Positions 1-30,180 of a DNA stretch of 64,000 nt are shown piece after piece. The DNA is taken from the NCBI GenBank assembly GCA_947561395.2, contig OX387182.1, forward strand, positions 52,351,283 through 52,415,282, written 5' to 3'. Made by a program: the position numbers and the translations under genes. Position 1 is the first letter of the stretch; every line of letters starts with the position of its first letter. The notes under the pieces are model-generated. The model was not told the origin of the DNA. It was given only the letters and a program-made list of their open reading frames with translations, and ran no database searches. The stretch comes from Buxus sempervirens. Its lineage: Eukaryota > Streptophyta > Magnoliopsida > Buxales > Buxaceae.

Positions 1-2087
1 GAGAACCTCGGTCTTCAGGGTGGTTATAGTTCTCTCTGTTTGATTTTTAAATTTATATTATTTTCCCTTCTATTTGTTCACTAGGGAGGCCTGTAGATCT
101 TACCATGGAAGGGGGTTTGTTGAGTGTTTTAGAGATGTTGTGCTTCTTGCAAAAGGAATTTCTTATGATTTTAAGATCATACATTTTTTAATAGATGATG
201 AATATATTATGTATAAGAATTCAAAAAAATGCTACATTAGGCCATGAGCAAAGAATCTCTTGCTCACAACTCTAGGCGTACACAAATACACACACCCCTT
301 CAGGGCCGTCCCTCTCTAGTCAAGACACAAGAAAGACCTCCTATATCATCTCCTCCCTACTAGAGCCTTCTTTTGCGAGAGAGACAGGCCCCTCATTAGT
401 GGATCTAGGAGCTAGGTTGAATGGAGTGTTCAATTCTAGAGCCAAATTAAGTGCACTCCTCATCTGAAGACAACCATTGCATGATAGAAGCACAATCCCC
501 TTCTAACACCAAATCATGAAACCCTTGCTGTTTGGCATATTCAAGGCCTATAAGACAAGCCTGCACCTCTGTGTGAAGTGAGTTCCCAACCCCATGGGCC
601 CTGAGAAGGTGAAAAAGGTGATCCCTGCTGCATTCCTGAATCCCAGATGGCGAGACAGTAAGTGAAGTATGATGCCATCCCCTATCTATGTATGCCATGG
701 ATAGTCCTCTGAAGAGCTTACAGAAGTCACAATGGAATCAAAAATGGAGGCTGAAGGGGTAACCCTCCCTTAAGAAATTCTGAGATTCCTATCTATATCC
801 ATTTTATGGTTTTTGAACAAAGCCTTCTATTATGATATTAGAATGGTACATCTTCTTAATTTCCTCTAGGCCTTGGAGAATGGCCATGGTTACTGATTTG
901 TCAGAATTCCCCATTGCTGGACTTTTGGAACAAAGTTATGCAGGCGTAGGCCTTGAGTTGCTTGGTAACTCGGGTAAGCTGAAGTGTGTGTTCAGAAGGA
1001 TAACAAAGTATTTCAGTGTTTAGTATAAGTTCGTTAAGAATTATTGTTTAATACAAATATTAATATTGTGAAAAGAATGAGATATTTAATAGTGGCAGTA
1101 ATTGTATCTCTTCTGGAATGCCAAGTTATTGCACGAGGGAAAGTTTTCAGTAGGCTAATGGGAAGGTGGTATATGTCCTATTTATGTGATAAATATCAGA
1201 AACTCAGGATTGGAAGGGCATATGGCATTTCTTCCTCATTTTTCAGAGGTAGATGTCTATCAAAAGTGTTATAAATTCTTGTGTAGATTGAAAAACTCAG
1301 CCACTGAATGCCATTATGCTATTGCATTGTGATGAAATGAAGGGAACAGAAGGTGTTTAAAAGTGTCCATAATATATCTTATTTCCTTAATGTCTGTGAT
1401 TGTTATGACCAAGATTTGATTATTCTTGCCAAGTTTTTTCGACCTCCATTTTTGTGACTCACAGGATGTAAAATCTTAATTATGTACATATGAAAAATTC
1501 TTATATAAATTATCTTTGTAATTCTTGTTAATTTAGTCTAGAGAAAACAGATCAAAAGCTGTAGCAAGGCCATTTTTTTTGGTAAGTTTGTATATTGAGA
1601 AGATCCTCAGGATGTTTAATCATGTAATTTGTCAGAATATTTTGTTGATGTCATTGTGATGAAATATTCCTTATTCTATATAAGTGAGATTTTCAGGTGT
1701 GGACATGCAAAATTCCCCTTTCATTATTCTAACAAATTCATGATGTTAGAGCCACTCTGATTTCCAATGCTTGTATTTATGATTCTGAGGCAAAGATGGT
1801 TGTATCCACTGCATTTTGTCCAGGGACGTTGCAGACACTATGTTTTGTCCACTGCCATACTGATTTTATAAGTGTGTATTGGTTTTTAATTAGGACAGTG
1901 AAACTACAATTTGTTATTTTTGCATGGAACATAAACCCTTTTCTGGTGGAACTTACATGGATTTAAATGAAGTATGTGAAAGAAACTTTATATAATTTTC
2001 TTAAATGAAGAAGAACATAACTCTAATTCTTTTGTCTTGTATATTAGTGGGCGTTTCTTGCTCACCGTTAGCTTTTATTTATTACAG
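1..2087. other. Non-coding DNA upstream of the exonuclease gene
   Basis: Apart from a LINE RNase H scrap near 370-698, I see no coding exon here. The first coding exon downstream is preceded by a splice acceptor (CAG at 2085-2087), so an untranslated first exon of the exonuclease gene probably lies in this stretch or left of the window. I cannot place it. Short open frames at 832-1023 and 1044-1274 show no recognisable motif. Confidence 0.5.
370..698 (-). pseudogene. L1-type LINE fragment, RNase H-like domain
   Basis: The minus strand encodes an 83-residue frame with the RNase H-like pattern found at the end of plant L1 LINE polyproteins and in related RVT_3 domains: an HTEVQACLIGLEYAKQQG helix, then the strand LVLEGDC with an acidic residue. 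The upstream beta strands that carry the first catalytic Asp are degraded, and no reverse transcriptase lies next to it. It is an isolated LINE remnant, not a host gene. The family is fairly clear from the motif; the exact limits are not. Confidence 0.6.
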
Positions 2088-2089
2088 AA

Positions 2090-5000
2090 ATGATGCAAAG
2101 GAAATGTGAGGCATCCATAAGATGCCTCCAGAGCAAGGCATACCCTTCCAGTCTGCAATTTAATGGAAATTCTACAGAAGGGTTGCCTGAACTTAAGGAT
2201 GGAGGTGGTATTGTGGAATCTGACAACTCACTAAACAGCAAGTCGTTTGCACATCCAAATGAAGGTAAACTGATATATCAACAAGATTTTGGCATGTGGT
2301 CAGCTTTTCATTCAGAATATCAAAAGGTGCAACAGAATCAATGGAATGGTTTTGAGAGCCATCTCTATTCTACAAATTGCGAGTACCCGTTCCCTATAGA
2401 TAATCAATATCAGTATATGTCTTTCAAGATGTGCACTCAAGGTTATCCATATGAATTCCAATTCCAAGAGTTTCAATACTTTGTGGTCATAGACTTTGAG
2501 GCAACCTGCGATAAAGAAAAGAATCCTCATCCGCAGGAGATCATTGAGTTCCCTTCTGTACTAGTGAATAGCATGACTGGGCAACTCGAAGCTGATTTTC
2601 AAACCTATGTGCGGCCAACATGTAATCAACTCTTGACTGACTTCTGTAAGGAGCTAACTGGAATCCAGCAAATTCAGGTGTGTGTAAAAATTATGCTACT
2701 AGCTTTCTTTGAATGTATGCTTTTGGGCATCAAATGCATGTCACATGCACTTGTAGTGAGCAAAGTTAAGGTTACTGTCTGACATATGGTGAGACTATAC
2801 CGTTGGCATATTCTGTGTGCTTATTTCACCAAGTATCTTCCTTTTCCAGATATATACAGTACGGTTTAAATTAGCTGCATCATGGTCCATTTATGTGGAC
2901 TTATTTTTCCATTTTTGTTCCTTTACCTTTACGAATTATCTTCTATAGTTTACCAGCCATTAAAAAAAATAAAGTAGGTTGAATGGTTACAATGATACAA
3001 TCATTTGGGATGCGAATTCCCATGGTAAAACAATCTCGTGATAGTTCCTGCCAGCAATGTTATTTAGTCAAATATTTTTACATATTCATCCTGGGCATGG
3101 TTCAAAGGATCATTCAGTCTAACTCAAAATTGACCTCTACCAAGAATTTATTACTACACCATAGGGACTATAACCTGGTGTGACTGTGTAAGTCCTGCTG
3201 AAGCATGCTCTTAAGAAGGGTGGAGTGGAGACTGGCAAGAGACCAAACTTTTGGCACGTTTGTGCAAAGTGGACACACTTAGGCTTCAACACGTATTTTT
3301 GGAAGTAGTCTGATCACAATGGTAGAAAATTAAAATTTATACACCATACAAAGAAAATTGAAAAAAAAATTAAAAACTTGGATTAGCTAGGCTTCTTATT
3401 GGTTGTGTCATCTGATTCGACTAGGCTGATCTGTCTCAGTATGGTCAAGACACATTATTCTTCAAAACAGCAGGTGACTCCTTTTAAAACTACTCTAAAG
3501 TGAAAATATTTCATTATCTTCCAGGCTTCTTCTCGTTCATCTCTCATAACTTATTCAGTTATGCTTTCAGTCAGATTTTTGTTTCAAAGTCATTGGAAGG
3601 ACTTGATCCAAGGTTTGCTAGGGGCTCATAAAGATTGAGAAAGGCGTGGGCTCGGTTCAAGCTCTTTAAAATTTTCCAGGCTCGGGATTAACTCTGGCTC
3701 ACTAATATTTCTTTGCCAGAAGATACTGTCAGATTTGACCTACTGCTAGAATCCCATCTGATGTTATTCTCATTGGCGGCTCCCTAGATTGAGGAGTACA
3801 ACTTTCTTTTTTATGCTAGACTGTGGCATATCTGGAAAGGAACAAGTGGATCTTTGAAGACAGGTGCTTTTTAATGTTGGCGGTTATGAATAACATTAAG
3901 ATCTTTGTAGCTTCATGGGGAGTGGTACATCTAGAGTTGTCTATATCAGATCTCTTGAGAGGATGGCAGGGTATTTGCTTCTTCCACCTGTCTATTTCTT
4001 AGATTTCATTATGTTGGTGTTTGCCACCCATTGGGACCATCAACTTTAGTTTTGATGGGCTTCCAATGGGAAACCCAGCACCCGTGGGCTTAGGAGGATT
4101 ATTGAGAGATGCCTATGGTACTATTGTTGAGGCTTTTATGGATCCTAAGGGAGAGTGAGTATCCATTAAAGTGGAATTACTAGCATTTTCTAATGGGATT
4201 GAAAATAGGGTGTCATGGCACGACAGGAGTGGGAGATTGCATTATCATTCTTTTGATGACCGCGGATGAACAAGGCTCGTGTAGGTTGATACACTTGGTC
4301 CATAAGGCAAGATCTTTGGCTCTTGAATTGAACACATCATTCGTGAGACTCATAGATTGGTCAATTCACTTGTAGATCATTTCACTAAGTTGGGAGTTGA
4401 TATGACAAACATGTTTGTTGGCATCTCACCTGAGGTGATGATTGGGTAGTGGGCATGTTCTTTCGGGTGGTGGAGTATTTTTTGGGGACCTTTGGGTATG
4501 AGAAAAATGTTTGATGGTTGCTTGGGTTGGAGTCTTGGTTGCTCGTGGGGATTTATGTTGTAATGCACTTTCTCCTTTATCAATGAAATTGTTTACTTCA
4601 TTTATCAAAAGGAAAAAAAAAACATTTCTTAGTCTTAGGATTCATTGGTATTAGGGAGAGGACTTGTATGTAACTCTGTGTTTGATACTTGCTTGGTTTG
4701 GAGAATCACGGTTGCCCTTGGGGATTCCTTTTTTTTAATGTATTTTCTCCTTTATTTATGAAATTCTTCACTTTATTTATCAAAAGAAAAAAAAATTTTT
4801 AGGCTCAAGCTTGGCTTCTTAAAGCTTAGCTCAATCTGAAACTATAATTGCGCACTTGCGCACACGAAATTAAGGTTTATCTGCAAAATTAATGAGTGTG
4901 ACATATACAAATTAAAAAAATTAAAAATTAATTACCTATTAAATGAATTATAAATATATTTATAGTGAAGTAAATTAAGCAAGCTGAGCTCTAAATGTGT

Positions 5001-8000
5001 CAAGGCCACCTAATCTTGATTCATGCTCATTAACTAAATGAGCATTTTTTAAAGCTCAGTCTTGGCTTATGAATCTAATTATTAAGCTCAAGCTTAGTTC
5101 TTGAGAATTGAAACCCAAGCTTGAGCCGGCTTGGCTCATTGATAGCCTGATCTACACAAAGGTGTTTCTACTTAATTTTATTTATTTTTGTTTTCATAAT
5201 TGCTTTTTAACTATTTATTCTATGTTCCAATATGTATTTCCTTATTTGAGCTGACATTTTCGGAAGATTAGTGTTCCTGAGATGAGGGTGCTAAGGTCGA
5301 CGTGTGGCAAGACTAGAAATGACAAAATAAGAAATGAAGATATTCGAAAGTGCTTAGGCATAGCATGCATTAAGAATAAAATTGAGGAGAGTAGGTTAAG
5401 ATGATTTAGACCTGTAAAGTGGAAACCTAGAGATGCACTAGTAAGTTTTGGGTGGATGCATATTGAAGGGCCTAGCAGATCAAGAGGAAGATCTAAAAAA
5501 AGACATGGATGGAGTTCATAAACAAGCTTTACGTAAACATTCATTAATTGAAGATATGATTTTGATAGAACGGGATGGAGAGACAAGATTTATGTTGCCG
5601 ACCCGACGTTGGTGGGAATTGGCTATTATGATGATGGTTATTATTATTATTATTATTAGTATTCCTTTTTTTTTTTTTTTAACTTCAAACTCTTGATTGA
5701 TGATCAAAATTTGTATTGGATTGGAGTGATCTCCATGCTAATGCCAAATTCTACACTATTGGCCTTGGTTCTGTTCACATGTATGACCTGCGCAGTTGCA
5801 GATATTTAAAGGATAAAGAATCTTAAAGGCCAACAAAAGCAGAGAAGTTAAAAAAAAATTATAGAAATTAAAATACCATAATTGTAAAAAAAAAAAAAAA
5901 AAACTTAATTTTACTTCAATGTTTATTAATTTTCAGCTACAAATTTTAAATATATGATCAAATTAGAAAAGTATGGCATCACATCCAGATGTATGCTGCA
6001 TTTCTACTGCATCTGCCTCCATTGCATATGTAATCCCTTCCTAAAAACTGCTTATCCTGTTTCATTTGGCAACAATGCCCAACGGTGTTGCACATAAAAT
6101 GTGTCTGCACGTTTGTAGTTGGATACAGCATGCTGTCCTTGTGATCCTCATTGTGTGCAGCCTTAGTTTTCTCCTAAATACGTTGTATTTCGTTACTGAC
6201 CTTGATTATCTTTGCACTTATTGCTGTTTATGCCTTATCTTTAATTTTATTTCTTTTGAATTTGATTTTGATACTGTTCTTTGTTCTTGCACATTACATA
6301 TTGTTTTATGTGGAACCTATCAACCAAGGTTCAAAATGTTATATTGATGATGTGTTTTTTTCATTCAAAAAACAGGAACATATGGAGAAACATATTGATA
6401 TGCTTGGAAGCAACAAAAAAATATGGAAAAATTGGACATGATAACTAAAGAAACTAAAGAGATAGCAACAATATAGAAAGGATTGATTCCCACAGTAAAT
6501 TTTCATATCATTAAATCATGAGATCATGGGCATCAATTATCCAACTCATGCTGTACCTTACCAAATATTTATTTTATCTTTGGTTCCCTTGGTTGTGAAA
6601 TGTTACTTTCAAGTATATGTAATCATCCACATTTGCATGTACTGTTCTTCCTCTCTTCTCTCATTTCAGTGAATAACTGCATAAGATTTTATTTGCTCCA
6701 TTTTTATGGTAATCAAAGCTCTCCAAAGTCTATGGTGGAGTTCTTTTTTTTACATACTGTACTAAGTAATCTTCTCAATGGTGTCGTCAGGGAGTCCAAC
6801 CCTCATTATTGTCCTATCTCATAAATTTTTTCGGTGAAGATAATGTGGAAAAATTACATGGTGCATAAAACTAAGTGGTACTTTGATTGGAAGTGTCAAA
6901 TTGTTGGAACACATTACTACTGAGAGTCAAGAACCAAAGCAGGTGATTGTTTTGTCTGATGAATAGGTGGCATGTTACTGCTGAGAATCGAGAACTTTAG
7001 CATGCGATTGCTTTGTCTGATGGAAAGCTGGAAGCAAATCCCTCATAAATAGCATTGTTTGCAATGGAGTCTTTGTTTCAGCCACTCATTTAGAAGAAGC
7101 CTAGATCCTGGTAGTTAACCTCAGTATAGTCAAAGATGCTTGGATGTGAGCTTTCAGATGTACAAAGACAGGAGCTTGATCTCATTCAATAGCTTCAGAC
7201 AACTAGAAAAGGTAATCCCTTTATAGCATAATACATGAAGTTTTAACAATTTGTGTGATCGATTGTCCTCAACAAAAAAACTAACTGGGGGATACAAGTA
7301 AGTGTTTTTTGCTGTTAATTGTCCTCGCTCATAAGCTATAGGGAAGGATATGGTTTAAAAATGCAGATAAACCCTAATCATTGGTTGGTTAGAGGCTCAA
7401 GAAAGGAGGAAAATAGAAAGTGGAAACCCAATTGGACAGAATTCATGCCATAATAGATTTAGCAAAGTTTTACATTGGCTTCCAACCTGATGCAACCCTC
7501 CTTTATCCAGGCTTGGGTCCGGCAATGCCTAGAAGATATAGCAATGTAAACCAATATTGCTGGCTCCAACTAGTTAGAATAAGGTATTTGGCCTTGTCTT
7601 TGGAAGCGGACATTTTTCTTCTAAAGGAAGTGTCTTGATAACAGTTAGACATTTTTCTAAAAGTAATGGTCAGCCACTGTCATACCCCAATCCAGTATAA
7701 TAAATACTGGATTTGAAATGTAACTGCAATTCCTACCTCATGTGACAATTAAGCAATGCACTTTTTCTACACTATCCTATTCAATTTGAATTGTAAAGAA
7801 TAATTCAAATCAAACTTAACACTAGACAATTAAATGTCAGTGAGAGTACAAGAATATGTAAACAAAACCTACATAAACCAACCAAATAGATAGGGCAACT
7901 AAATCACACAAAAATTCAACTTAAATAGTAAATAACAACCTTCATAGAATTGCAATAGCCAAAATAAAACAATAAAATTCAGCAAACTCCTATTAATCAA

Positions 8001-11000
8001 AAGTAAGTCCTATATAGACTAAGTAAACTTATCTCAACGTCTTACCACATCGATTTTGGTAGTCTACTAATCCCATTCTTGATCTTCATCTGTATCTATA
8101 GTTATTCAAAATAGGAGTGAGCAAAGCTCAATAGATAATATTCTATATACTTAGTTCCCACTGGAAATTTTAGACATGTTGGATTCAGCCAATAAAATCG
8201 AACACATGCAATAACTAAATTGAAATCAATCAGATAATGCAACTATGTTTTCATGCAATTAATGCAAACCTAATAAGCATATATGTCCTAAATAAATACC
8301 TTCTAATATGTCATACCATGCAAAGCAAGTAAATAAATGCGCAACTAGTAAAGTGAACATAAAATGCTTTGTTATCATTCCTATTTTTTATAATTTTCAT
8401 AGGTATAGGGTCTGTCGACTGGACTTTCTTTCTTATAATTCAATATAATCTTCTTAAATTAATAACCATCATTTAAATAAGGCCTGTCACCTACGAAATA
8501 ACCATGTACAAAATAAAATTTTAATCTTGTAGCAAATAAATAAATTAAATATTGCATTATCATAATTCATAGGGCCGGTTGTTTGAAGTAGAGATCCTGT
8601 GATAAAACATTATTAAATTAAAATGATTTACTCTTTATTTAAGACCTCTCAAACTAAGCATCTTTATATTAATTAGAATATTCTACCTTGTACACAGGGC
8701 CTATGATAAATTATCTATTTTAAATTACTGATTAAATTGGCTCACATTGGTGATAGGGCATCTAAATAACTACCCTAATTAACTAATTAATCATATAAAA
8801 TATTTTCTTGCAACTAAGTAAGTAGCACTCATAAAAAAAAACTTAGCTAATCATTAAGGAGAATCTCCCAATAAATAACTAATCATCCCTTCTTGTAACA
8901 ATTTTTAACTAATGTTTAACTAATTAACTAACTAATTAATAATCACATTAAGAGAACTAGGGGACTGCACGTGCTACACACGTAGCAAATTACAAAACAC
9001 CTAATTTGTAAATGTTTTTGTGGGGCCCTTTAGAAAAACACTCCACATTAAAATAAATCGCATGTCATTCCATTGGGTTAGTTATGCTGACGTGGCATAA
9101 CAAATCTGTAAAATGGAGAAAAGGACGATTCGGGCATGGAATGTCAGGCCCGAATCTTTCCTTCTCGCTTTATATATTGATATAGATCTTTTAGTAACTA
9201 ACTAATTAATTAACTAATGAATTTATCTGGCTAGCTAATTAATATTTTAACAAACTAATCCTAATGAATAGGCCTTTAATTATTGAACCATTTAAGTAAT
9301 AACTCACTTTTACAGAGACCATAAGTATTATACTTTTTAATAAACTAGTAAATATGCACGTGCGTTGCACGTGGGATTTTTATTTAGAGTAAAAGGTAAA
9401 CTAAAGGTTTTATAATAGGTAAATCAAAGATTGTAGTTTGAGGGAAGATGCATATGTAAACGTTTTAAGAAAATAGTAGGCCGGTAGGAATAGGCTAACG
9501 ATTATTGCTGAGCAAACAGGAACTTTCATGATGCTATATTTCAGAATGGTTTGGGATGCATTATCAATTCTATGTCTGGCTTTTCATTTATTTATTTATT
9601 AATTCTATGTCTGCACCTTCATTGTTATACTATAATATATTGCTTGATGATAGAGCAAAGCTTGAGGAAGTGAATGTGTAAGTTTCCTACCTTGTATGGT
9701 CTCTAATATTCACTTAAATTTCTGTTTTGTCATCTTTTAAACCAAGATTTGTAAGTTTTCTATTAGAGTTAGAACTATATCTATAATTATGGTGTTGAAT
9801 AGATCATAGATGTAAGATTATTCTCAGAGGTTTTCTATTTGGAATAGATCTCTATTATGATAGGAATTATTTATTTAAGAAATGTATGATTTCTATCAGT
9901 GCAAGAAATGTCAACGAGATAAAACTGTGGAAAAGGTAAGATTTTGGGTGGACATTGATGTTAATAGGCTAACGATTATTTCTGCCATATTTTTTTCTTT
10001 CATATTCGTTTATTTAAACAAACAAAGCGCTTAAGATGAGGTTTTGAGATAATCCTATTGGAAATAATCAGACGATAAGAGTAGAAGGGATAATAACCTC
10101 TAATCAATAATATATCAGAATAGTTATTATTTACAATTGATCTTTGAAAGGATAATAACCTCTAATTAAAAGAATAGAGTTATTATTTGTTATGATAATC
10201 CTATTGGAAATAGTAAGACGATAATAACTTTATAAAAGAATTAAAAAATAAAGATTTAAGACAATAATCTTATGTAGTGATTTCACTCAGTCCGATATTT
10301 TTGTAAATGAATTTAAATAATCGAGAGTTTCACTTTAATGAGATTTAAACTAATCTATTGCTTCCATATTTGTTTCTTTCATATTCGTTTATTTAAACAA
10401 AGAGATTAAAATGAGGTTTTGAGATAATCCTATTGGAAATAATCAGATGATAATAGGAAATAAAGAATTGAAAGAAATAGGTAATTCCACTACACCAATT
10501 AAAGCAACGAATCTAATTGGTAATCAGAAGTCTCTATCAATGTCTGTCTGGGAATTAGAAGCCAAAAAGTTCTGCTCCACGTTAATCTTCTTGGCGGCAG
10601 CGAGGTAATCCGATACACTTCTAAGATTCTGAACAGTGAGATTGGCTTGCTGCACAACATAGTCTAATGTGTTCGTTGTGGTACTGTGAAACTTCCCCTG
10701 GCCAGTGTACAGAACAACACATCCAACACTGAAAACAGAGCAAAACATCAATGAAGTCAAATGATCAATAAACTAACAAACAATCAACGGGTAAAGTAAA
10801 ATGAGAAGAGGAACTTACATTGCGGCAACAGTGAATAATATGAGAAAAATGAGAGAGAGGGCATAAGCTATTCGCGAATAGCCATAATGGGGTCTTCGGC
10901 AACAGCAAAAATAGCAGCTCATACACAAAAAGCACAATCCAAAGACCAGGAACCAGACTGCAGCAATGATAAATAATGGAGCCTCTGAAAAACCCACAGA

Positions 11001-14000
11001 CTGTTTTCAAAGTAATTCCAGAAAACACAAAGAAAAGGATAAGTTGATCATGATAAACACAAAACAAACTAATCACGGATAAGAAAAATAAAAAATACGA
11101 CAAGCAAGCCAGAACAAAGGGGAAAAAAAATGCTCAGACACAAATCAACTTCCAAATAAAAACAATCGCTTCAGTGCTCTAGAAAATGACAATCCAATTA
11201 AAAAGTAGAGATAATGGATTATGTACTTTAGACATTCACAAGTCAATTATATAAAAATAGATAAAACCCAGAAGAGATGACCCATCAAAGATCCGGAAAC
11301 TTACAGCCCAGTAATGCTTATTTTTTATATTCCATCCACCGGTGTAACGCTTGAATCCATCTAGAGGGTCTTTCCTATGTGTTCTCCTCGCAGCTAATAT
11401 GAGAGATGAGTTGTATGCAGGGTCACTATTGTTTGCTTCGGCCATGGACCTCCTCGTACCCCATGAAATCACCACATCATGTTCTTCCTCATCAATTACC
11501 CCTGACGGTAAACAGAAAGAGCAAACATTTCAAAAGGAAGAAATGAGAAGGGAAAAATGCTTGTTCAAAGAACAACTCTGTAACTGGAAAAACAAATTCC
11601 TTCGTCAAATTCAAGGATAAAACAAAGCAATAAACACGATGTAGAATGGAAACAAAAACAAAGAGGAAGAAAATCTCTTACTCGTTAAGAAAACAGCACT
11701 GTTCACTGTGGAACAAAAAGAACAAACTTTCCAGGGGAAGGAAAAGAACATAAAGAGAGACTGACAGAATTAATCTTCCAAGATAAAAATAACAATACTA
11801 TTTGGTGGGAACCAATTTCTTCGTCAACCAAAAAACTAAGAAATACCCACTAAGCAGAAGAGAACAGATAATCACTAAAAAAAAGTACATGATACGGGAG
11901 ACGTTTGAAAATGTAACAACTGAGAACCTCCTTGCACGAAGGAAATGACGGCCGAAGAAAAGAAGAGAAGAGTAGGAAGGAGGAGAAATGTTTATCTATT
12001 TCTAATAGTCTCTATCCACTCAACGATCTATCCGCTCAATGATGCAACAAGTTCGTCAATATCCAAGACACAATCATAGAATCGACAATTCTACTCGCAG
12101 TTATTAACGATTTGAAGGGGTACCTCGGTTATTAACTGATATCGTAGTACGTGATTCCAGCAGCACGAACATACACACTCGCCTCATGGTTGTTCCCAAG
12201 AGGTGCGGTGAATCGAAAGGACAACTTCATCCAAATTAGTTTTTACTATGAGGGTATTCTAGGAAGAAAAAAGTGGACAAACATTAAGGGCCTTCTTACT
12301 TTTTATAGTAGTAAAGATAACTACCATTTACTTGGGCTTAACAATTAATTTTCAATGCTCTTACTGATAACAAAAAAACAATTAATTTTCAATGCATATA
12401 ATGAACCAACTACCTAGAGAATATGATTTCTTAAAAACCACCCCAGTTATATAATTAATTAAATAAAAAACTATCAACTAATTATAATGAATAGTGCTTG
12501 GTGATACTTATATATTTATGATAGGACCACTAGCATATTAGGGTTGATAGTGATTTGTTATTTATCACTATAAATTAGAACTCTAAAATTTTTAGTTGAT
12601 AATAAAATGGGGAATAAATGTCCAAGTCTTTCATTTGAACTCTACCCTCTTTTATATTAATTTGGGTTTCCCAAAAATCTTATTAACAATTTTTTATGTT
12701 CTTTTAATTAGATACCAGGGGACTGCACATGCTACACACGTAGCAAATTTGTGGGGCCCATTTAAATAGACATCCCACTCTAAAAATTGATAGAATGCCA
12801 TTCTAAATGGGTGGTTACAGCGTGTTTAAATTTGAATGTGCAAAGAGCACTGACAAAGTTGTTATAGCGAAGGATTGTTTTGTTTGTGGAGGGTAATATT
12901 TGGAAAAAAAATTGGAGGGCCAGAATTTGGGATAATATTCCCCCCTGTTCTCTTTACTAATAGTATAGGTATTGTAAATTTTAGTCCAGATATTTAATCT
13001 TTTCTTAAGAACCTTCAAAATTGATTAATATATGATCTAAGGTCATCTAAGAATCATCCAAGAATGTTAAAAATAAATCTTTAATTATTAAAGATTTAAG
13101 AGCCCCCTTTGGTGTGAATTGGCTTATGATAATGATGATTAAAGGTTTAAGATCCATCATGAATCAACAAAGAGTGTTTAAGAACAATTTTATAATTTCA
13201 AACAATTTTAAGAATTACCTATTTTATTTCAAAATTATATTTTTACATGAAATACTAATATTTTAAAAGTTAAATCATGACTCTAAATACCCTAAATTAA
13301 CTTTATATTTTATAGGATGATAAAACATATAAAAATACAAGGTTACTTTTATTTAATCATGATTCTAGAGGTAATAAAAATTTATTGAAATTTTGAGCAC
13401 GAATTTCCATAATGAAGGTTATCAAGAAACCCTAAACCTCATCAAGAATCAGTCTTGGATACATCCACTAGTCTAATACACTCAAAACCATCAAATTAGG
13501 TTGAATCCACCTATCTCTTGTTTGCTGTATTTTTTCTGCACTTTGATCTCCACCAAGAAACATAATTTTTCTCATTGAAATTACTCCTGGGGCTGGCGTG
13601 TAGTTCTTCTCCTTTTTGTGTCCAGTTTTTATCAATATTAAAAGTTGGTAATGGAACACCACCTCACTGCTTTGGTTCTTTAAATATTGCTTGAATAGGA
13701 CAACTTAATCAAGTACTATTATCAAAACAACCTTTTTTTCCTTCATGGGCTGTACACTTAGCTATTTAGATCTAATCTAGACCCAACTTAAGTCTAATTG
13801 GGTCCTTCATGAGCTCGAGAAGGGTAATTCATTAATTAATTTATCAATTAAGCTAATTGGAGAAAGACAAAATTAGCCCTAGGTTAACTCTAGGTCATTA
13901 GAGCTGTGCTAATTGGTAGAGATGAACGTTGGGTCAGGCCAACCTGAAAACTGACCCAGCCATAATAATTGTATGATTGGGGTGAGGTTCAATAAAGTTT

Positions 14001-17000
14001 GGTTTTATTTGGGTCCCAAATTTGATTTTCAGGTTGGGTTTTGTTGAATTTGGCTTAGCTAAAAAGTCAGCTCAAATCAATTGTATATAAATATATTCAA
14101 CTTATGGTTTGGAGCAAGGTAGACAGTTATAAAGTGAGAAGAATGATGATGGTTAGAGGATATGCATCCCTACCTTTTAGGCATTGTTTCTCAATTATCT
14201 ACCCATGCTTGAACATTATTTTTGACAAATGTGATTAGTTTAGTTGTATAATATCTGTTGAATCTTCTCTGAGTCTAGTTGTCGTGTTTGCCTGTTATGT
14301 TGATATGTTTCTACTCTAGGAAGTCAAAGCTACCGTCGTATATTTTTAGTAATTATGTAGGGCTGGTATTATTTTTAAACTGTCTGTACTACTCTTTCTT
14401 CTATGAAGTAGGACACGGTTAACCTATATAAAATGTACTTGTGTGTGTGTCTTTGCGACTTGCGAGTGATATTGGAACTAGAAATCCTTCTGACTTCTTG
14501 ATGCCAACTTAAGATTATTTTCAGGTTACCTTTGATTTGGTCAATCTGGGCTCAAGGTTCTTTCGTTTGAGTTTTGGACGGGCTATGTTTGTGCCCACCA
14601 AATTCTTACTGTGCTAAGCCTAAAATGATCAGGGCCTGTCCCAACTGCCTGATCTTTAGGTCTTCTCACTGAGCAAGAAAGTTAGATTCAAGCCACTAAA
14701 AAAAGTCCAGATAAAGCCCAATGTCAACCTTGCTGTTACTGGATTTGAAGGATGGGTGCAGTTGATCTCTTTGATATAGGTGTCAGTATGGATACATTAA
14801 AGGGAAGAATAACTTCCACTTGATTGACCATGTTTGTGTGAGGATGGTCTCCATGTCTGTCATCATCAATTCACGTTATTTCAAAACACTCTAGTAAAGT
14901 GTCTGTATGTCCATCGTTTTATGTATCACAAGGCCCACTACAAGTATCAGAAGACTTCATCTCATCATCATCAATATCTTGTGCCATAGCTTTCTCTAGG
15001 TGATGGCTGTGTACTAGATTGGTAGGGCTGTGCGCCTTACTATCGTGTTTAGCAATGTATTTGGCGTCCCCTGTCAGTGGTACATGCTCACTAGCGCCAT
15101 TGCCCAAGGAGGCATTCATACCAGATGATCCACCTGCACCCAATGCCAAAGCACCAGCTTTACTCCCTTGCCTATTAATATCGTTGTTGTCATTGCCATC
15201 ATCATCATCATCAAATGTCTTTTTGCAGGCTTATCTTCTGAATCACTATTGATGATGATAGAATGAAAATGGTCACTGGTTCCTGCATGCTCCTTATCTT
15301 ACCGTAATCAGTTATTGGAAAAGTCATCGAAAAATGACTCACCCCTCCCTTGTGCACTTTTATGGCTTTCTTCTTCAAAATATCGTTGAATTTTTTTTTT
15401 TGGGATCAATAATGAAGTTTGAGTGTGTCTATATATATATATATGTGAGGTAAAATAGAAGTCAAAGTAGTACAATTGATCAGCTAAGAACAAAAATACA
15501 AACAACAATCCCTAGCCATCTTGCAGCCCCCTCAATGCAAAACTAAGAATACCATACTCATAGCTGAATGAAATCAGACCATGAATTGAACAAGACGTTC
15601 ATACTCTCGCTCCATAAAACAATTAGCAAGAGAACTGGAAGCACCCCAACCCCCTAGATAATATCAGATATGCACCCTACATAGATCTCCATCAAGAACT
15701 CAAAGAAATAGAAGCCCAACATCGTCTGACATCACCACTAGAATACCCAGAAAACAGTGGAAGCAAGGCTGCCCAAAAAATATCATTGAAATGGAGGGAC
15801 TTGTAGTAACATACAGTATCCCACAGTATTATTGAATGGACATATACAAGCTTTTGTAACTTTTTGTCCTTCAGATGATTATGAAATCTTGGGTGGATCA
15901 ATGAGAAGATATTCCAGTCCTCTCATCGACAGATTTTTTTTTTGATAATCTCTCATCGACAGATGAGGAGCAAATGACACAACATCTTACGTGCATTTTA
16001 CTTGCGGTGACCAGGATTTGTAATAGGTCCACCATGAACCGACCAATACATGTGGTTTGAGAATTAGAATTGAAAGTTCAAAGGAAGGATTTAACTTAAA
16101 AAAAATTCGGATTCAGAAGTTAATAATGACTATTGGCAGATAGGGCATGGATCCCAAAAATTTTTGCAGTTTCTTGAAATTGCTCAGATCTGGTTCATAG
16201 CGGCATGTATATAAGCAATATGCACAAAAATGGTGGAAGATCTAGTTGAGATAAGCGATATGGTAGGATTTCCTGCAATTTGGACGTCCAGAGAAGAAGA
16301 AACAAGCTTGGGAAGGCCAATAATGGTGTCCCAAGCTCTATTGCTTGTTACCAGTCTATTATGTGCTGCCAAAAAGAGTGGAACCGGTTGTACCAGTCCA
16401 TACCTGCTGGTATAGACCGCTCCATGCCAATGATGGGTGATAGATGGATTTTATTATTTTTATTTTATTTCTATTGTCACGTGAAGGTACTGGACAGGTA
16501 TAAGTAGGAAATCCGTGTTTTGAATTAATTTAACATTGCATATCATGCCAAGGAGATCCTACAGGCCATAGTTGTCATGCTAGTTTGTGATCCGTATCAA
16601 TGGCAGTGAACCTGGGAGCAAGATCATGCATGACAAATAGTCCAGGTATTTTCACATCATGACAACCTCATTGTGGTACAGATGAAATACTGTTGGAGAT
16701 GGAATTTTTTTTTTTTATGATTGAACTACATCAGTAAATATTGTATTCAGCTCACTTTTGTGATTAGAAAGAAAATCTTATATCCATGGGACAACTAAAT
16801 GATGATATGATAATTCCTGTTGAATTTCATTTACAATTGCGGTAGGAATAAAAAATGGAAGCTTATATGGCTGAGGAGGGGAATGAATGGTGATAACTTT
16901 TCTACAAGGGAAAGAAAGTCATCTAAGGAGCTTTGATGTAATCAAGTAGTCTCTTCTCTATGTAGAATAATTTAATCCTATTATAAGTGGAACTAATTTA

Positions 17001-20000
17001 CATCAGTTTGTAGCTTTAGTTGTTAGATGGGAAAAAGCTTCAAGGTTCCATCTATTGTTGATATTATTTGTTCAAATACTGAATAAGATTTATAGGTTCT
17101 TGCTACTATGGCACTGGCTATGATGCATTTTTCATTGATTTTATCCTGTATTCATGGATTTGTCTGGAAGCTTAGCCTGAGTTGGTTGAATCCTTTGTTA
17201 GAGTCTAGATGATGTTTGAAAACATTTCAATTTCAATATAATAAAGGGGAGTGTTTGTCAAGATTGACTTGGTACATTTTCTTGTTGAAAATTGACTTTT
17301 AAGACGAGTAACATGCCTTCCTTAAAAAAGGGGAATACAGAGTAAAAGCACACATCATGTATTTGGGATGGCCAGAATATGTCATTGCTGGGTTCCATGA
17401 AGTCCATGGATTAAGGCATCCTCCACTACTCTTTCGTGATTTACAAGGTCCTATCACAGGTGTATGAAATGAAATAATCTTTCCAGTTATCGCTAGGGAT
17501 TGATTCCAACTACTTGTTTGACTCTGGGCTTGTAGTTGTGGATGCTGCCTGCTTGTAACAAGTTTTCACATTGTTCATTTCCTCATTTATTCATTGGGTG
17601 CCACACAATTCATGAAGGGATATCGGTGTTTGCTTACCATTATTGAGTGTGCCAATATTTCTCATCACATTCCATTTGATGTAAAACTATTGCCTCTTAC
17701 GAACATCTCCTTTTACAATGATGTTCTAATAGTTACCATGGACAATTGTAACAACATTCTCTCAAAGAGAGTAAATTGTTGAGAATTATCAGCCATCATA
17801 CCTGATAACACTCATATTCCCATGTATCATTTAGAGTTACACCATGTCCTTCCTACCATCTCACCTCCTACAATGATGAGGAATTTCCATCTATCCTCTA
17901 GAACTGCACTATCTTATTGCCATCATCTTACCTTCTATAACTATGTCGGGGGAAACAAAAAGTGATATTCTCTATAACTTTGGACCTTGAATGTTACACG
18001 TCCTCCAAATGCTAATGATGCCACCAGAACAGTAGAAGCCACACCTGTCGTGTCAACTATTAAGTGCTAAGTGAAGGATTTAGCAGTCAATTGAAGCACC
18101 ATTTATCATCTCAATGCCATTATGAGATGGTCTAATTATTCCTCTTTAGTGGCACCATTTTTTCAATCTTAATCTAGTAATCAAAATGTAAATATTTCAG
18201 CTTCAGAGACTAGGCTGCCAATTGTCACTTAGTATTCGTTGGATGCAGATTTGTGAAAAGAAGAAGGCTGAACAACTCTAAACTAAAACATCACGAATAT
18301 TGGATGAAATTAAGTCCATAATTGAGCTCTTAACCATCTTGGATGCATTCAAGGTATGAAAGAATATGAACTTCCTCAACAAAAATGACAAAATGCCCTA
18401 TCTCAACAAGTTGGTGTAGGCAACAGTAAATACTGCTCCACCATCCCAATATGCCAAAAGCTATTTCTTTGATTAGGTTATACGTATTTAAATTCTTTTT
18501 GTATGACTTCATCCAGTTCCTTTGTGGTCTTACTCTTGATCTCTTGGATCTTTAATTGTATACACCATGGCACCTCATAGTGCCTCCTTAGGTGTTCAAT
18601 TTACTAACCCAAACCATTTTAACCCATTGTCATTTTTTAGCCCATATGTAGACAATACTTGTATTCTCTTGAATATGTTCATTACTGTCTTTCCTGTTCC
18701 TTTTTTTTTTATCAGTAACTGTCTTTCCTATTCTTCCTACACATCCATCTCATTATAATCATCTTCAGCAATGAATATGACGTGAATACGTTATATCTTT
18801 GTTTTGTAGTATCTTGAGCAATATATCATAGCAGTCTTAGTAGTTGTCTTGTAAAATTTCTTTCTCGCTTCAGTGAAACACATCGGTCACATGACACTCT
18901 GGAAGCATCTTCCCAAATTTTATAGGTAATAGATCCAAAATCACACAAACAATTGCTTTACGAGTCTCTTGGTTCTCAATTCTTATCATCATTCCACCTC
19001 ATCTATCATTTGTTCTAAAGTTAAAATTCCATTTATTCTGTATTCGTTTTAAAACAAAACCATTTGATTCTATGGTATTCCTCCATATTCTAGCTTTAAA
19101 TTTACTCCCTCTCTGGTTTGGTTCTCCAAAATCACATCATCTAGAAATAGAATACGGCAAGACACCTCTTTTATATGATTTGTCATTCCATCCATCATTA
19201 AAGCAAAAAGCTATGACTCATGGTTAACCCTCGATGTCAACCTACTGCCTCTGAAAATTCATTTATCCTACTATCTTAGTTTCTCACCATAGTTATCATT
19301 CCATTATAAATTCACTTGACAACTTCAATGTAGCTGAGTGGTAGTCATTTTCTGTATAAAATCCACCAGGCTGAATCTTTGGATACTTATATGCTTCCTT
19401 GAAATCAATCATATAAATGTTATTTATCATTCTTTTTATTAACTGCTTTACAGAAAAAATGGCATCAAGGATAAAACTTCGTAGCATAAAACCGAACTTG
19501 TATGCTGAAGTTCTGGTTATTTTTCTTTGCTTTTCTACTTTACCCTTACCCCTAGTTTTGTGGTATGACTCAAGCTTGCTTCCTTCATACCTGGTGCAAT
19601 TTTGGAGGTCCTTTTTTTGTTTTTGTATATGGGTGTTAACGTGCTTCTCCTCCAAAGATTTTTGTCTTCGGAATTTCTATCAAATAATTTGGTCAACCAA
19701 AATACATCAATGACTATCATGAATTACCAAATTTAAAATTTTAAATCAATTATCATTTGGTCTCAACTCCCAAGGCCTTCCCTATTTTCATCTTAGCTAA
19801 AGCTCCCTTGACTTCAGTAGTCCTAATCTGCTACATTTAGTTGGGACACAGGATTTTGTTGTTGTTCTTCTTCTTGTTCATGTTGTGTCTTTTGTCTTCA
19901 TGTTAGGCCCTGTATTTTCCTTGATGTATTATTGGTAAGTAGTAGTAAATGTTCTACTGTGTTATGTGGTTCCAGGTTGACAGGGGTGTTTCTCTTAGCG

Positions 20001-20776
20001 AAGCTTTACTTATGCATGATAAGTGGCTTGAAGAGAAGGGAATTAAGCATACCAACTTTGCTGTGGTGACATGGTCGAATTGGGATTGCCGAGTGATGTT
20101 GGAATCTGAGTGCAGATTCAAGAGGATTCGCAAGCCACCTTATTTCAACGGGTGAATTATCTAGAAAGCCAGTTGCCTTGTCTAGTAACCTGATTTAGTT
20201 TTATGATGGTTTCTAAGACTTATAATGCTAATAGAAATTCTTGGATGGATCTATATTTGTTTTTGATTTGTTGCGAGTTTTGTGACTAGGTGGATCAACT
20301 TAAAAGTTCCATTCCATGAGGTATTTGGTGGGGTCCGATGCAATCTGAAGGAGGCAGTCCAACGGGCTGGCCTAGCATGGGAAGGCCGTCCTCACTGCGG
20401 CCTGGATGATGCTAGGAACACTGCCCGTCTGCTCGCTCTCCTCATGCGTACAGGCTTCAGGTTCTCCATAACCAACTCTCTCCTGTGGCAGTCCGGTGAC
20501 CATACATTTACATGGCATCAATCCCCCGAGTGCTCACCTGCCCCAGTCTACCACCCCCACAAACTGAAGCAGCCTCCGGTGTCCCTAATTCAGCTCCAAC
20601 CTGCCAATACAGACCTGGGCAAGGAGCGGCACATGCACTGCTACTGCGGTGTGAAAAGCAGCAAACAGATGATCCGAAAGCCAGGCCCTAAGCAAGGGAG
20701 TTTCTTCTTCGGATGCGGCAACTGGACCATTACTAGAGGTGCCCTGTGCCCGTATTTCGAATGGGCTTCCTCTTAA
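2090..20776 (+). CDS. ERI1-like 3'-5' exoribonuclease with GRF zinc finger
   Basis: Three coding exons, 2090-2677, 19976-20151 and 20290-20776, join in frame (phases 0 and 2) to 416 residues. ATG 2090 is the first in-frame Met after a splice acceptor at 2085-2087, so the 5' UTR is split. Residues 1-125 are low-complexity. A DEDDh exonuclease domain follows: VIDFEAT (Asp135, Glu137), WSNWDC (Asp233), and GRPHCGLDDA (His290, Asp295). These are all five expected catalytic residues. The last 45 residues form a GRF zinc finger (CYCG...FFGCGNW...CPYFEW), which binds single-stranded nucleic acid in other proteins. ERI1-family enzymes trim 3' ends of small RNAs, histone mRNA or 5.8S rRNA; the plant substrate is not shown here. 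The first coding intron is 17.3 kb and full of transposons. Exon calls rest on GT-AG sites and domain continuity. Confidence 0.93.
3790..4621 (+). mobile_element. L1 LINE 3' end (RNase H region, 3' UTR, poly-A)
   Basis: Plus-strand translation in shifting frames gives the L1 C-terminal signature WKERNKWIFED (near 3830) and an RNase H start resembling FNFDG...GNPAPVGLGGLLRD (near 4045-4110). It then has a 3' UTR ending in a poly-A tract at about 4611-4621. Frame changes and stops show it is dead. Only the last part of ORF2 remains, as expected for a 5'-truncated insertion. Confidence 0.7.
4630..4795 (+). mobile_element. Second L1 3' end, tandem to the previous one
   Basis: About 165 bp repeat the 3'-UTR pattern of the preceding LINE: TTGCTTGGTTTGGAG, then CTTGGGGATT, then TTTCTCCTTTAT, then TTTATCAAAAG and an A-run at about 4785-4793. 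It has no coding sequence. It is either a second very short 5'-truncated insertion or a local duplication of the LINE tail. Confidence 0.55.
4796..5160. repeat. AAGCTC-rich imperfect repeat region
   Basis: Variants of AAGCTCAAGCTTGGCTT and its complement recur on both strands (for example near 4802, 5053, 5090 and 5115), separated by AT-rich DNA. A similar string of GGCTC...AAGCTC words occurs at 3620-3710 on the other side of the L1 copies. The LINEs may therefore have landed inside one older dispersed repeat. No coding capacity; family not identified. Confidence 0.35.
5240..5695 (+). mobile_element. RTE-type LINE 3' end
   Basis: The plus strand encodes the conserved C-terminal tail of plant RTE LINEs in broken frames: an IRKCLGIA-like segment, then RDA at the '[10 protein letters not shown]' block, then GPSRSRGRSKK, then WRDKIYVADPT. 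It ends in an ATT/GAT-rich simple repeat (about 5625-5660), typical of RTE 3' ends in place of poly-A. It lacks the endonuclease and reverse transcriptase. A second copy of the same segment lies at about 52,030-52,390. Confidence 0.7.
5700..8956. other. Intronic DNA without recognised genes
   Basis: AT-rich intron sequence. It contains an A-run at 5887-5903, a short tandem duplication at about 6909-7032, and a 72-codon open frame at 7420-7638 with no family match that I recognise. From about 7,650 to 8,950 it is strongly AT-rich with repeated TAACTAATTAA words and no coding pattern. Confidence 0.45.
6909..7032 (+). repeat. 62-bp imperfect tandem duplication
   Basis: The words ATTACTACTGAGAGTCAAGAAC...GATTGTTTTGTCTGATG and GTTACTGCTGAGAATCGAGAAC...GATTGCTTTGTCTGATG are adjacent, with a period of about 62 bp and roughly 80% identity. 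It is possibly derived from a coding repeat, but I recognise no family. Confidence 0.5.
8957..9186 (-). mobile_element. Short non-autonomous Helitron (230 bp)
   Basis: On the minus strand the element starts TCTATATCAATATATAAAGC (TC at 9186-9185), preceded by A. It ends in a GCTAC-GTGT-GTAGC hairpin and GCAGTCCCCTAG (CTAG at 8960-8957), followed by T. This is the Helitron structure: 5' TC, 3' CTRR behind a hairpin, insertion between A and T. A 9-bp inverted repeat (GATTCGGGC at 9127-9135, complement at 9148-9156) sits just inside the 5' end. There is no coding sequence, so mobility would depend on a RepHel helicase encoded elsewhere. Confidence 0.72.
9995..10450. repeat. Direct duplication inside the large Helitron
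   Basis: About 80 bp starting TTTCTTTCATATTCGTTTAT and running through GATAATCCTATTGGAAATAA occurs at about 9996-10079 and again at about 10373-10448. The intervening DNA has further GATAATAACCTCTAAT copies (near 10,089 and 10,148). Local reshuffling of non-coding filler DNA is common in Helitrons. Confidence 0.65.
10530..11501 (-). pseudogene. Captured 5' fragment of a tweety-like/At2g12400-type membrane protein gene
   Basis: Three minus-strand exons are recognisable: 11501-11305, 11000-10819 and 10728 to about 10535, with GT-AG introns at matching phases. The product matches the N-terminal half of a plant multi-pass membrane protein family. It has a Ser/Arg-rich loop ending WNIKNKHYWA, a first TM helix SVGFSEAPLFIIAAVWF, the Cys-rich CYFCCCRRP, a second helix, then GCVVLYTGQGKFHSTTT and a luminal helix. 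Similarity stops abruptly after SNSQTDIDR at about 10,535, and no later exon follows. A hydrophobic ATG frame at 11890 could be the signal-peptide exon, but its splice phase does not fit. The Helitron ends enclose the fragment, so it is a captured copy rather than the family's working gene. Confidence 0.75.
12715..12969 (-). mobile_element. Short non-autonomous Helitron (255 bp), sister of 8957-9186
   Basis: The minus-strand 3' end repeats that of the 230-bp element: GCTACGTGTGTAGC hairpin, then ATGTGCAGTCCCCTGG (CTGG at 12718-12715), followed by T. The 5' end reads CCTATACTATTAGTAAAGAG at 12969, preceded by A. The canonical TC has mutated to CC. Shared words such as TTGTGGGGCCC in both short copies support one family. 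It has no coding capacity. Confidence 0.65.
12970..18780. other. Intronic DNA, no assignable gene
   Basis: AT-rich intron sequence with scattered short open frames. A 76-residue minus-strand frame at 14919-15149 (Gly/Ser/His/Asp-rich, MALGAGGSSGMNASLGNG start) and a 69-residue minus-strand frame at 15692-15901 look more coding-like than their surroundings, but I recognise no domain. 17,590-18,150 is rich in CATCAC-type words. No RNA gene is recognised. Confidence 0.4.
18790..19860 (-). mobile_element. RTE-type LINE remnant, reverse transcriptase region
   Basis: Minus-strand frames in order give WLTKLF...RRSTLTPIYKNK (finger region, about 19,700-19,600), GFMLRSFILDAIFSVKQLI and DFKEAY (about 19,500-19,390), a decayed catalytic FLDDVIL in place of FADDIVL (about 19,150), and a C-terminal block like CDRRVPLKLKGKFYKT (about 18,900). 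This is the RTE reverse transcriptase order with stops, frameshifts and a lost active-site Ala. It lies antisense to the host gene inside its intron. Confidence 0.72.
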
Positions 20777-21642
20777 GCAAAAATGACTGCCCAGATTGAT
20801 ATCCTCAGTTTGGATCAGAACATCTGTAGAAAGTGGGAGTTTAAAAAAAAAAGAGACAATCTAAAGAGCAGTGTGGTCTCTTTTGGAAGCAAATTTGCAT
20901 TAGCTACTTTTCAGGGCTGCTGATGCTTGCCAAAAAGAAAAAAAGAAGAAAAACATATAGTAGTCTCAAGAGGTGTGTCTGCATACTGCCTCTTAAAAAC
21001 AGTTCGAGGGAAAGGGTGCCTTAACCTGTAAAACTGACTTCTTGTTGAGAGAGGAGTAAAGAAGTGTGTGTGTGTGATGTTGGGAATGCTTGCTTAGTAA
21101 AATGCTCAAACATCCTTAATTATCATAAATATCCTTATGAGGAGATAGGGGGTAATTTCTTACTCTATGCTTCTCAATGGGAATCGGCATGTGTTCTTCT
21201 GGTTGATTCAGGGACCCCCATTTTTTGGTCTATAGTTATTTGCTATGCAACAAACAAGCATTGCCTTGTTAATGTCACAGTCTCGGGCTCGGCTTAGGCT
21301 CCTGGATGTGGCCCATTAGTGCTACAGACCTACACTAAATCTGAATGCCTTAAGAGAACTTTGGGTAATGTTTTTTAAAATAGTTTTTTGGTTTTCGATA
21401 AATGGCACTACAGTTTTCAAAATTGTTTTGAAGAAATGAAAAGTAAAGAAATTATTAAAAAGGGTTACTTTTTAATAATATTTATAAAAACAGTGTACTA
21501 AGATGTCAAATTAAAAATTGTAGAAAAGGGCCACTTTTAAAAAATAATTGAATTGAAGGGTAACTTTTCAAAAAAATTACAAGATAGTGTTGTTTTTATT
21601 ATAAGTAAGACACGCTTATGTTCATGTATGAGTAGAATGCGC

Positions 21643-29122: not shown

Positions 29123-29670
29123 TATCTTCAAGCAAATGGCTGAGAATTGAAGACTAGAAGAGCTCCAAGTGAAGAAGAAAACCCCTGCCTTTCTGCTTTC
29201 TCAAGTCCAGGTAAGCCTCTCTCCTCATTTATTTTCTAGTTTTAATCTCTAGGATTATTCTGATCTTCTCCCTTTCTGTAGGATAAGGCCTGTGTATGAT
29301 TGCAACCCCAAACCTAAATCCAAGTACCTCAAGTATCTTCTCTAGCCGTAAAACTTGAAGAGGGTTCTAGGGGAAAAGATTACAGGAATGGATCCGTAGG
29401 GCAAACCCTCATGTGTTGTAATCTTAGAAATGTGTAGTTTTAATATTTTGTTTAGGTTGTGTGATTGTTTATTGATGAAATATGGAGGAATACCATGGAT
29501 CTATGCTGTTCATAGCATTAGATCTCATTTTCCTCCTAGATTTTTGATTTTTTACATTGTTTTCTCTCTTTTATGTTTTTTTTATCATTAGGCTAGGATT
29601 TTGGGTCTGCCATGATCTATATGGTAGATCTGAATCAGAAGCATTAAAGTAACCTCTAGGGTTTCATGAG

Positions 29671-30180
29671 GTGATTTTGGAGTTGTTTGGATTTTTAAGA
29701 GAAGACCTTATGGTCTAAACTCTCCCCTTTTGATGTTTTTCATTAATGTGGGTAAATCTGGTTCAGATCTCTTAATTAATGAGAAACCTAGACCAGATCT
29801 GTACCCTATATGGTTTTGATTTATTCTTCAATATTATGAGCTGATTTTGGAATTGTTTTGAGTTTTGAGAGAAAACCCTATGGTCTAAACTCTCCCCTTT
29901 TGATGTTTTTCATCAATATAGGTGAATCCGGTTCAGATCTCTTAATTAATGAGAAACCTGGACCAGATCTGTACCCTAAATGGTTTTGATACATTTTTCA
30001 ATTTCATGAGGTGATTTTTGGTTTATTTTCAATTTTGAGAGAATACCCTATGGTCTAAACTCTCCCATTTTGATGTTTTTCATCAACATGAGTATATTTG
30101 GTTTAGATTTCTTAATTAATGAGAAATCTGGGTCAAATCTGTACTCATATTGTTCAGGTTCAATTCTTCAAGATTTTGTA
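29671..30180. repeat. Three tandem 170-bp units
   Basis: Units start at 29671, 29841 and 30011. Each contains TATGGTCTAAACTCTCCC, TTGATGTTTTTCAT, CAGATCTCTTAATTAATGAG or a close variant, and CAGATCTGTACCC or a close variant. The third unit is the most diverged. They lie in the 3' part of the LTR-type insertion. Confidence 0.88.

Follow-up and report, generated by a model that had tools for sequence, protein, structure and literature searches.

The window analysed here is a 64-kb stretch of the Buxus sempervirens genome (C1:52351283-52415282), which we searched against the assembly it belongs to (676.5 Mb, 247 contigs). On its plus strand lies a gene with an RNase_T exonuclease domain, and the 17,298-bp intron of this gene (2678-19975) holds, on the minus strand, a 2,973-bp element (9345-12317) that we regard as a genuine and well-resolved case of a non-autonomous Helitron with a genomic gene capture. 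The first-pass annotation, made from the sequence letters, had placed a Helitron inside an exonuclease intron, and the element does lie within 2678-19975. The RNase_T domain was found in the open reading frame at 2072-2782 (E = 1.2e-11). The intron starts at 2678 (CAG|GTGTGTG) and ends at 19975 (TTCCAG|GTTGACAG), and the predicted protein continues across it from ...GIQQIQ to VDRGVSL.... The last exon, which encodes the C terminus, weakly matches the end of RNase_T (E = 0.039) and gives a sub-threshold match to the GRF zinc ribbon (22.5 bits vs 25.9). The host gene is presumably ERI1-like, probably with no exon between 2678 and 19975; the ERI1 type is a small-RNA-degrading family. This locus is itself duplicated, as probes from window 1932-2832, 19802-20904 and 30017-30617 all fall within the duplication. 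The duplicate, C1:52298500-52327100, corresponds to window 1932-30617 and contains the Helitron as well; identity is ~97-99% where probed, and probes ~40 and ~50 kb into the comparison had no match to the window. Either the segmental duplication is genuine, or the assembly has a haplotype artefact here.

Both termini of the element can be placed to the base. The minus-strand 5' end lies at exactly 12317 (A|TCTTTACTACTATAAAAAG, the A being the complement of 12318), with the TC dinucleotide at 12317-12316. At the 3' end, the minus strand reads through a subterminal hairpin, CACGTGC-AAC-GCACGTG (9357-9373), then CATATTTA and the terminal CTAG (9345-9348), whose last base is exactly 9345 and which is followed by T (complement of 9344). 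The hairpin has a 7-bp stem and a 3-nucleotide (nt) loop and ends 8 nt before CTAG; its region folds at -7.5 kcal/mol (z = -4.55), with none of 200 shuffles equally good. A scan of the 64 kb showed it to be the sole perfect G+C-rich stem of at least 7 bp before a CTRR|T, and such a stem occurred in 1 of 20 shuffled windows. TC and CTRR termini, a G+C-rich hairpin near the 3' end and insertion between A and T without target duplication, by which Helitrons, a class of rolling-circle transposons, are recognised, are therefore all present. The end sequences recur across the genome, with at least 44 matches to the right part and at least 43 to the left part; scoring was limited to the best 40 candidates, which makes both figures lower bounds. 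In the loci that were fetched, T follows 21 of 22 distinct 3' ends (four of the 22 have one common flank and do not count as fully independent), and A precedes 27 of 29 distinct 5' ends. ATCTTTA|TCTTTACTAC stands at many family 5' ends in these loci (e.g., L053, L057 and L065), which looks like a doubling of the first bases or an insertion into a similar target. Within the 64-kb window, a motif lookup gave no convincing further copy of the element, and Rfam gave no match at gathering scores.

Between a Helitron 5' part (11992-12317, minus strand) and a 3' part common to capture-free sister elements (9345-10516, minus strand), the element carries a 1,458-bp genomic segment of a DAR/At2g12400-type membrane-protein gene (10534-11991, minus strand), delimited by its homology to a locus on C11 (L010). 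The family name is tentative and draws on the first-pass annotation and a published description. L010 was modelled by hand as nine exons with 553 codons, an open frame and GT/AG introns. Alignments indicate that it is the parent of the captured segment or very close to it, because the nine-exon model is open, its regions align with a C21 paralog across the whole gene, and its homology to the element (matches >60 bits) is confined to element positions 327-1784. The 553-amino-acid (aa) parent protein, with its hydrophobic start and layout of hydrophobic segments, is similar to the 528-aa protein with a signal sequence and five membrane spans described in PMC11316349. In Pfam, all matches stayed below threshold, to Tetraspanin with the parent and to Tweety with the fragment, and a sequence search of PDB with the parent protein found no match.

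The capture spans codons 8-233 and takes in parts or all of four exons together with three complete introns. These are the rest of exon 1 from codon 8, in the signal-peptide region (11889-11991), exon 2 (11305-11501), exon 3 (10819-11000) and a part of exon 4 that stops mid-exon (10534-10728), all on the minus strand. Since the three introns align to the parent, the segment was captured from genomic DNA, as had been proposed; the prediction that this genome also contains a full-length parent is borne out, as are the splice joins 11305>11000 and 10819>10728. The first-pass annotation had counted three exons and missed the part of exon 1 at 11991-11889. Its abrupt mid-exon end near 10,535 stands as such, with homology actually ending at 10534, whereas its description of the segment as the 5' half of the gene is approximate only: the capture holds 677 of 1,659 coding nt (41%) and begins within exon 1, 21 nt past the A of the parent ATG, without the parent's first seven codons, start codon, 5' untranslated region or promoter. 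An ATG-led exon at 11751-11682 was considered and rejected, because it corresponds to parent intron 1.

A DNA search of the genome with window 10535-11305 returned six matches. Apart from the window copy (W), these were a second copy on C1 (D), 54.7 kb upstream; full elements with different flanks on C8 (E) and C22 (F); the parent locus on C11; and the C21 paralog of the parent (75% over part of the query). D is a duplicate of the window locus because its flanks match, at 99.2% over 8.9 kb. E and F carry the same capture between A|TC and CTAG|T, and their flanks change exactly at the element ends, so that the enlarged element, with identical joints, occupies three unrelated sites: the exonuclease intron, C8 and C22. 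Homology running past the element ends, which the first-pass annotation had held would speak against a Helitron, was seen only for D, where the host locus itself is duplicated, and not for C8 and C22. The further copies with the same ends that it proposed to look for exist in unrelated flanks, and together with the exact termini, hairpin and A/T flanks they bear out the identity of the element.

The joined flanks of the C8 copy, used as a query, gave 45 rows, of which two were its own flanks, 35 ran unbroken across the site and eight matched other parts. Two of the 35 unbroken rows were fetched. The one on C15 reads CAGAGTATAA|TATTTAACACAAG opposite CAGGGTATAA|TATTAAATAAAAG at the C8 copy, and a C1 copy of the repeat hosting the C8 element is likewise continuous at A|T. 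As both are uninterrupted, the C8 element was inserted between an A and a T and left no target duplication; this exact empty site refers to the C8 copy of the same element, not to the window locus.

Two capture-free sisters show what the element looks like without the gene. Sister A (C11:55695-57361, 1,667 bp) and sister B (C6:54421614-54425668) both have the two Helitron parts and, where the gene segment sits in the carriers, ~200 bp of common Helitron sequence surrounding two imperfect repeats (GTGGATAGAG...). In other copies of the host repeat of sister A, 6 of 10 rows cross its site; this empty site is less exact, with a 4-nt gap in the one row aligned. Sister B contains an insert of 2,397 bp (L073:442-2838), which we examined as a second gene capture and rejected, as its ends read TG...CA and it comes with AGTAG as a 5-bp repeat; it is probably a nested element of the long terminal repeat type.

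Comparison with the sisters makes both capture joints readable on the minus strand. The left joint in the carriers falls at ...AATAGATAAA(C) of the first imperfect repeat, where parent and Helitron overlap by 2 bp (AC, 11990-11991) with sister A and by 1 bp with sister B. At the 3' joint, in the second imperfect repeat, the parent and the capture-free elements overlap by 5 bp (GATAG, 10534-10538). Just past it, a 12-nt filler (10517-10528) replaces Helitron sequence kept in A and B, standing by eye for ~50 nt. At random joints, a 5-bp overlap would be expected with P = 0.0075 and a 2-bp overlap with P = 0.186. Joints and filler are identical in W, D, E and F, and a tree of the Helitron parts separates the carriers, as one group, from the two sisters, with an ultrafast bootstrap of 94 when built on the right part and 81 on both parts together; four right-part sites speak for the carrier clade and none against. 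A single capture on the carrier stem is the best reading of these alignments.

Candidate autonomous relatives were sought through Helitron_like_N, which occurs 142 times among the genome matches listed. By eye, four of these (on C8, C21, C9 and C1) lie downstream of a family 5' end on the same strand, at distances of 6.9-13.1 kb; the frame is open on C8 (636 aa) and C21 (967 aa), with no stop, and has one stop on C9 and two on C1. The candidate on C8 (plus strand, ~13 kb), the one of the four with both family ends, would comprise a 5' part at 49470639, Helitron_like_N at 49477558-49478103 and a 3' end at 49483611; in all such candidates, the parts were paired from coordinates, and the protein match is the one to Helitron_like_N. 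A related Helitron of ~4.5 kb with both family ends (L079, C8:43624366-43628881) has at its positions 300-524 (minus strand) a WD40-like frame, RUP2/COP1-like and sub-threshold in Pfam. In PDB, designed propellers score above its best plant match, RUP2 (75 bits). The frame likely represents a second gene capture in this end-family. L079 also carries a zf-RVT frame of the long interspersed nuclear element (LINE) type.

We then consider the fate of the captured fragment. Window and parent differ at 58 of 1,443 sites, namely 29 of 677 in exons (4.3%) and 29 of 766 in introns (3.8%), and window and C8 copy at 3.3% in both. Slower divergence of exons than of introns, a mark of selection, was thus absent from both the parent-window and the window-C8 comparison, and because the two diverge alike, no constraint is visible. 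Parent-window dN/dS (nonsynonymous over synonymous divergence) is 0.035/0.070; this ratio lies below 1, although changes on the branch of the parent itself also enter into it. Four stops interrupt the C8 copy, and a frameshift the C22 copy. Given that exons and introns diverge alike and that these two copies are disabled, the captured fragment is most likely neutral cargo.

In the captured segment, 11 substitutions are common to W and D only, 25 occur in E alone and 33 in F alone; 36 separate the parent from all carriers, seven sites conflict, and W and D differ at 10 sites. C-to-T-type changes account for 5 of those common to W and D, 16 of those in E and 23 of those in F. Their context is CHG in 11 of 23 cases in F, vs 101 of 557 background cytosines, and in 3 of 16 in E. 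It is possible that the C8 and C22 copies have been more methylated than the copy in the gene. Window and C8 copy differ at 48 of 1,457 sites in the captured region vs 13 of 1,172 in the right part. The carriers are more distant from the parent than from capture-free B, an apparent conflict of ages. It becomes smaller in a comparison of like regions, since the carriers differ more in the captured region than in the right part and much of this is C-to-T-type change.

Taken together, these observations make it quite probable that one internal capture of an L010-type segment (codons 8-233) took place, that the enlarged element spread to three sites by mobilisation in trans, and that it is neutral in the host intron. 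Break repair or template switching inside the element would have brought in the gene segment, joining Helitron and gene through matches of 1-2 bp at the 5' joint and 5 bp at the 3' joint; the Helitron would have lost sequence around the two imperfect internal repeats and gained the 12-nt filler. The element would since have depended for its movement on RepHel that longer relatives supply in trans and, in the host gene, would presumably be spliced out with the intron while decaying neutrally. Several observations weigh against parts of this account. The left part contains just two sites that favour the carrier clade and three that place E and F with B and set them apart from W and D. The mechanism rests on one event, whose 5' overlap is unremarkable. 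By hand count, parent and carriers differ by 26-29 transversions over 1,430-1,446 sites vs 9-11 over 1,157 between carriers and B; because this is somewhat above expectation, the segment may stem from a different allele of L010 or from a close paralog since lost, and a mild excess remains even between like regions. The frame is open in W and D, leaving room for a function of the fragment there, and the trans-acting partners, although likely to exist, were paired by coordinates only.

The strongest alternative concerns the route of capture. In an end bypass, demonstrated for the reconstructed bat Helitron Helraiser (PMC4778049), the 3' terminator is missed, the adjoining gene is copied and a new 3' end is gained. 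Here, however, the captured segment lies between Helitron parts that are only ~200 bp apart in sisters A and B, and carriers and non-carriers have the same 3' end, so that a bypass would need a second event restoring the old one. Because the segment is internal and the old 3' end is retained, we consider a bypass unlikely; repair or template switching, the filler-DNA route, appears to fit better than read-through at the 3' end.

A regulatory role was also weighed. The host gene is on the plus strand and the captured exons on the minus strand. The first-pass annotation suggested that the fragment may be transcribed antisense to the host gene; conversely, the predicted host pre-mRNA would carry the complement of the parent's exons 1-4. 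Such a role would have ~1.46 kb of antisense sequence in the host pre-mRNA lower the expression of the parent through double-stranded RNA or small interfering RNA. Besides the opposite orientation, the few differences from the parent, the open frame of the window copy and the smaller number of C-to-T-type changes in the C1 pair than in the C8 and C22 copies speak for it. Against it, exons have diverged as fast as introns, and any element located where there is transcription and less methylation would be expected to show fewer C-to-T changes. We therefore find a regulatory role very improbable, and slightly more so the specific proposal that the Helitron turned the pre-mRNA of a duplicated ERI1-type gene into a supply of antisense sequence directed at the DAR-type parent. 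Finally, an ordinary pseudogene or segmental duplicate with Helitron-like ends by chance, a scarcely credible reading that could draw on the recent segmental duplication of the window locus, is refuted by the independent C8 and C22 copies with the same ends, unrelated flanks and exact empty sites, and by the >1 kb of non-gene Helitron sequence held in common with capture-free elements.

Elsewhere in the window, we noticed ~2.8 tandem copies of a 170-bp unit at 29664-30144 and an open frame at 40396-40755 that, judging by its motif, presumably resembles a LINE reverse transcriptase.

How Helitrons pick up genes is still debated between end bypass and filler DNA. In this case, one genome holds the donor, two capture-free sisters, three independently placed carriers, readable joints and candidate autonomous partners, and for one of the carriers it also keeps exact empty sites. 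This allows a fairly direct reading of the order of events, and the same comparison could be repeated on other members of the family.

Helitron capture of gene fragments with introns is a well-known kind of event with precedents, to which our case can be compared. Thousands of capture events are reported in Brassica napus (PMC11986588). In Lolium perenne, a non-autonomous Helitron carries exons 1-5 of GIGANTEA and resembles the Buxus element in its TC/CTAG borders, hairpin, A|T site, multi-exon fragment with introns and several copies (PMC2702305). Its authors suggest growth at the 5' border, whereas the Buxus fragment is internal with both joints readable; capture-free sisters with both Helitron parts, present here, are not shown in what is accessible of that report (PMC2702305). 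Related maize elements likewise imply stepwise acquisition of gene fragments, although the terms 'junction', 'microhomology' and 'filler' are absent from the main text (PMC3288121). Insect Hel1 captures ascribed to filler DNA show the same internal acquisition in sister elements, with end junctions of 2-13 bp at the source loci; they differ in involving insects and genomic source pieces, whereas here four exons of a plant gene were taken up (PMC6544945).

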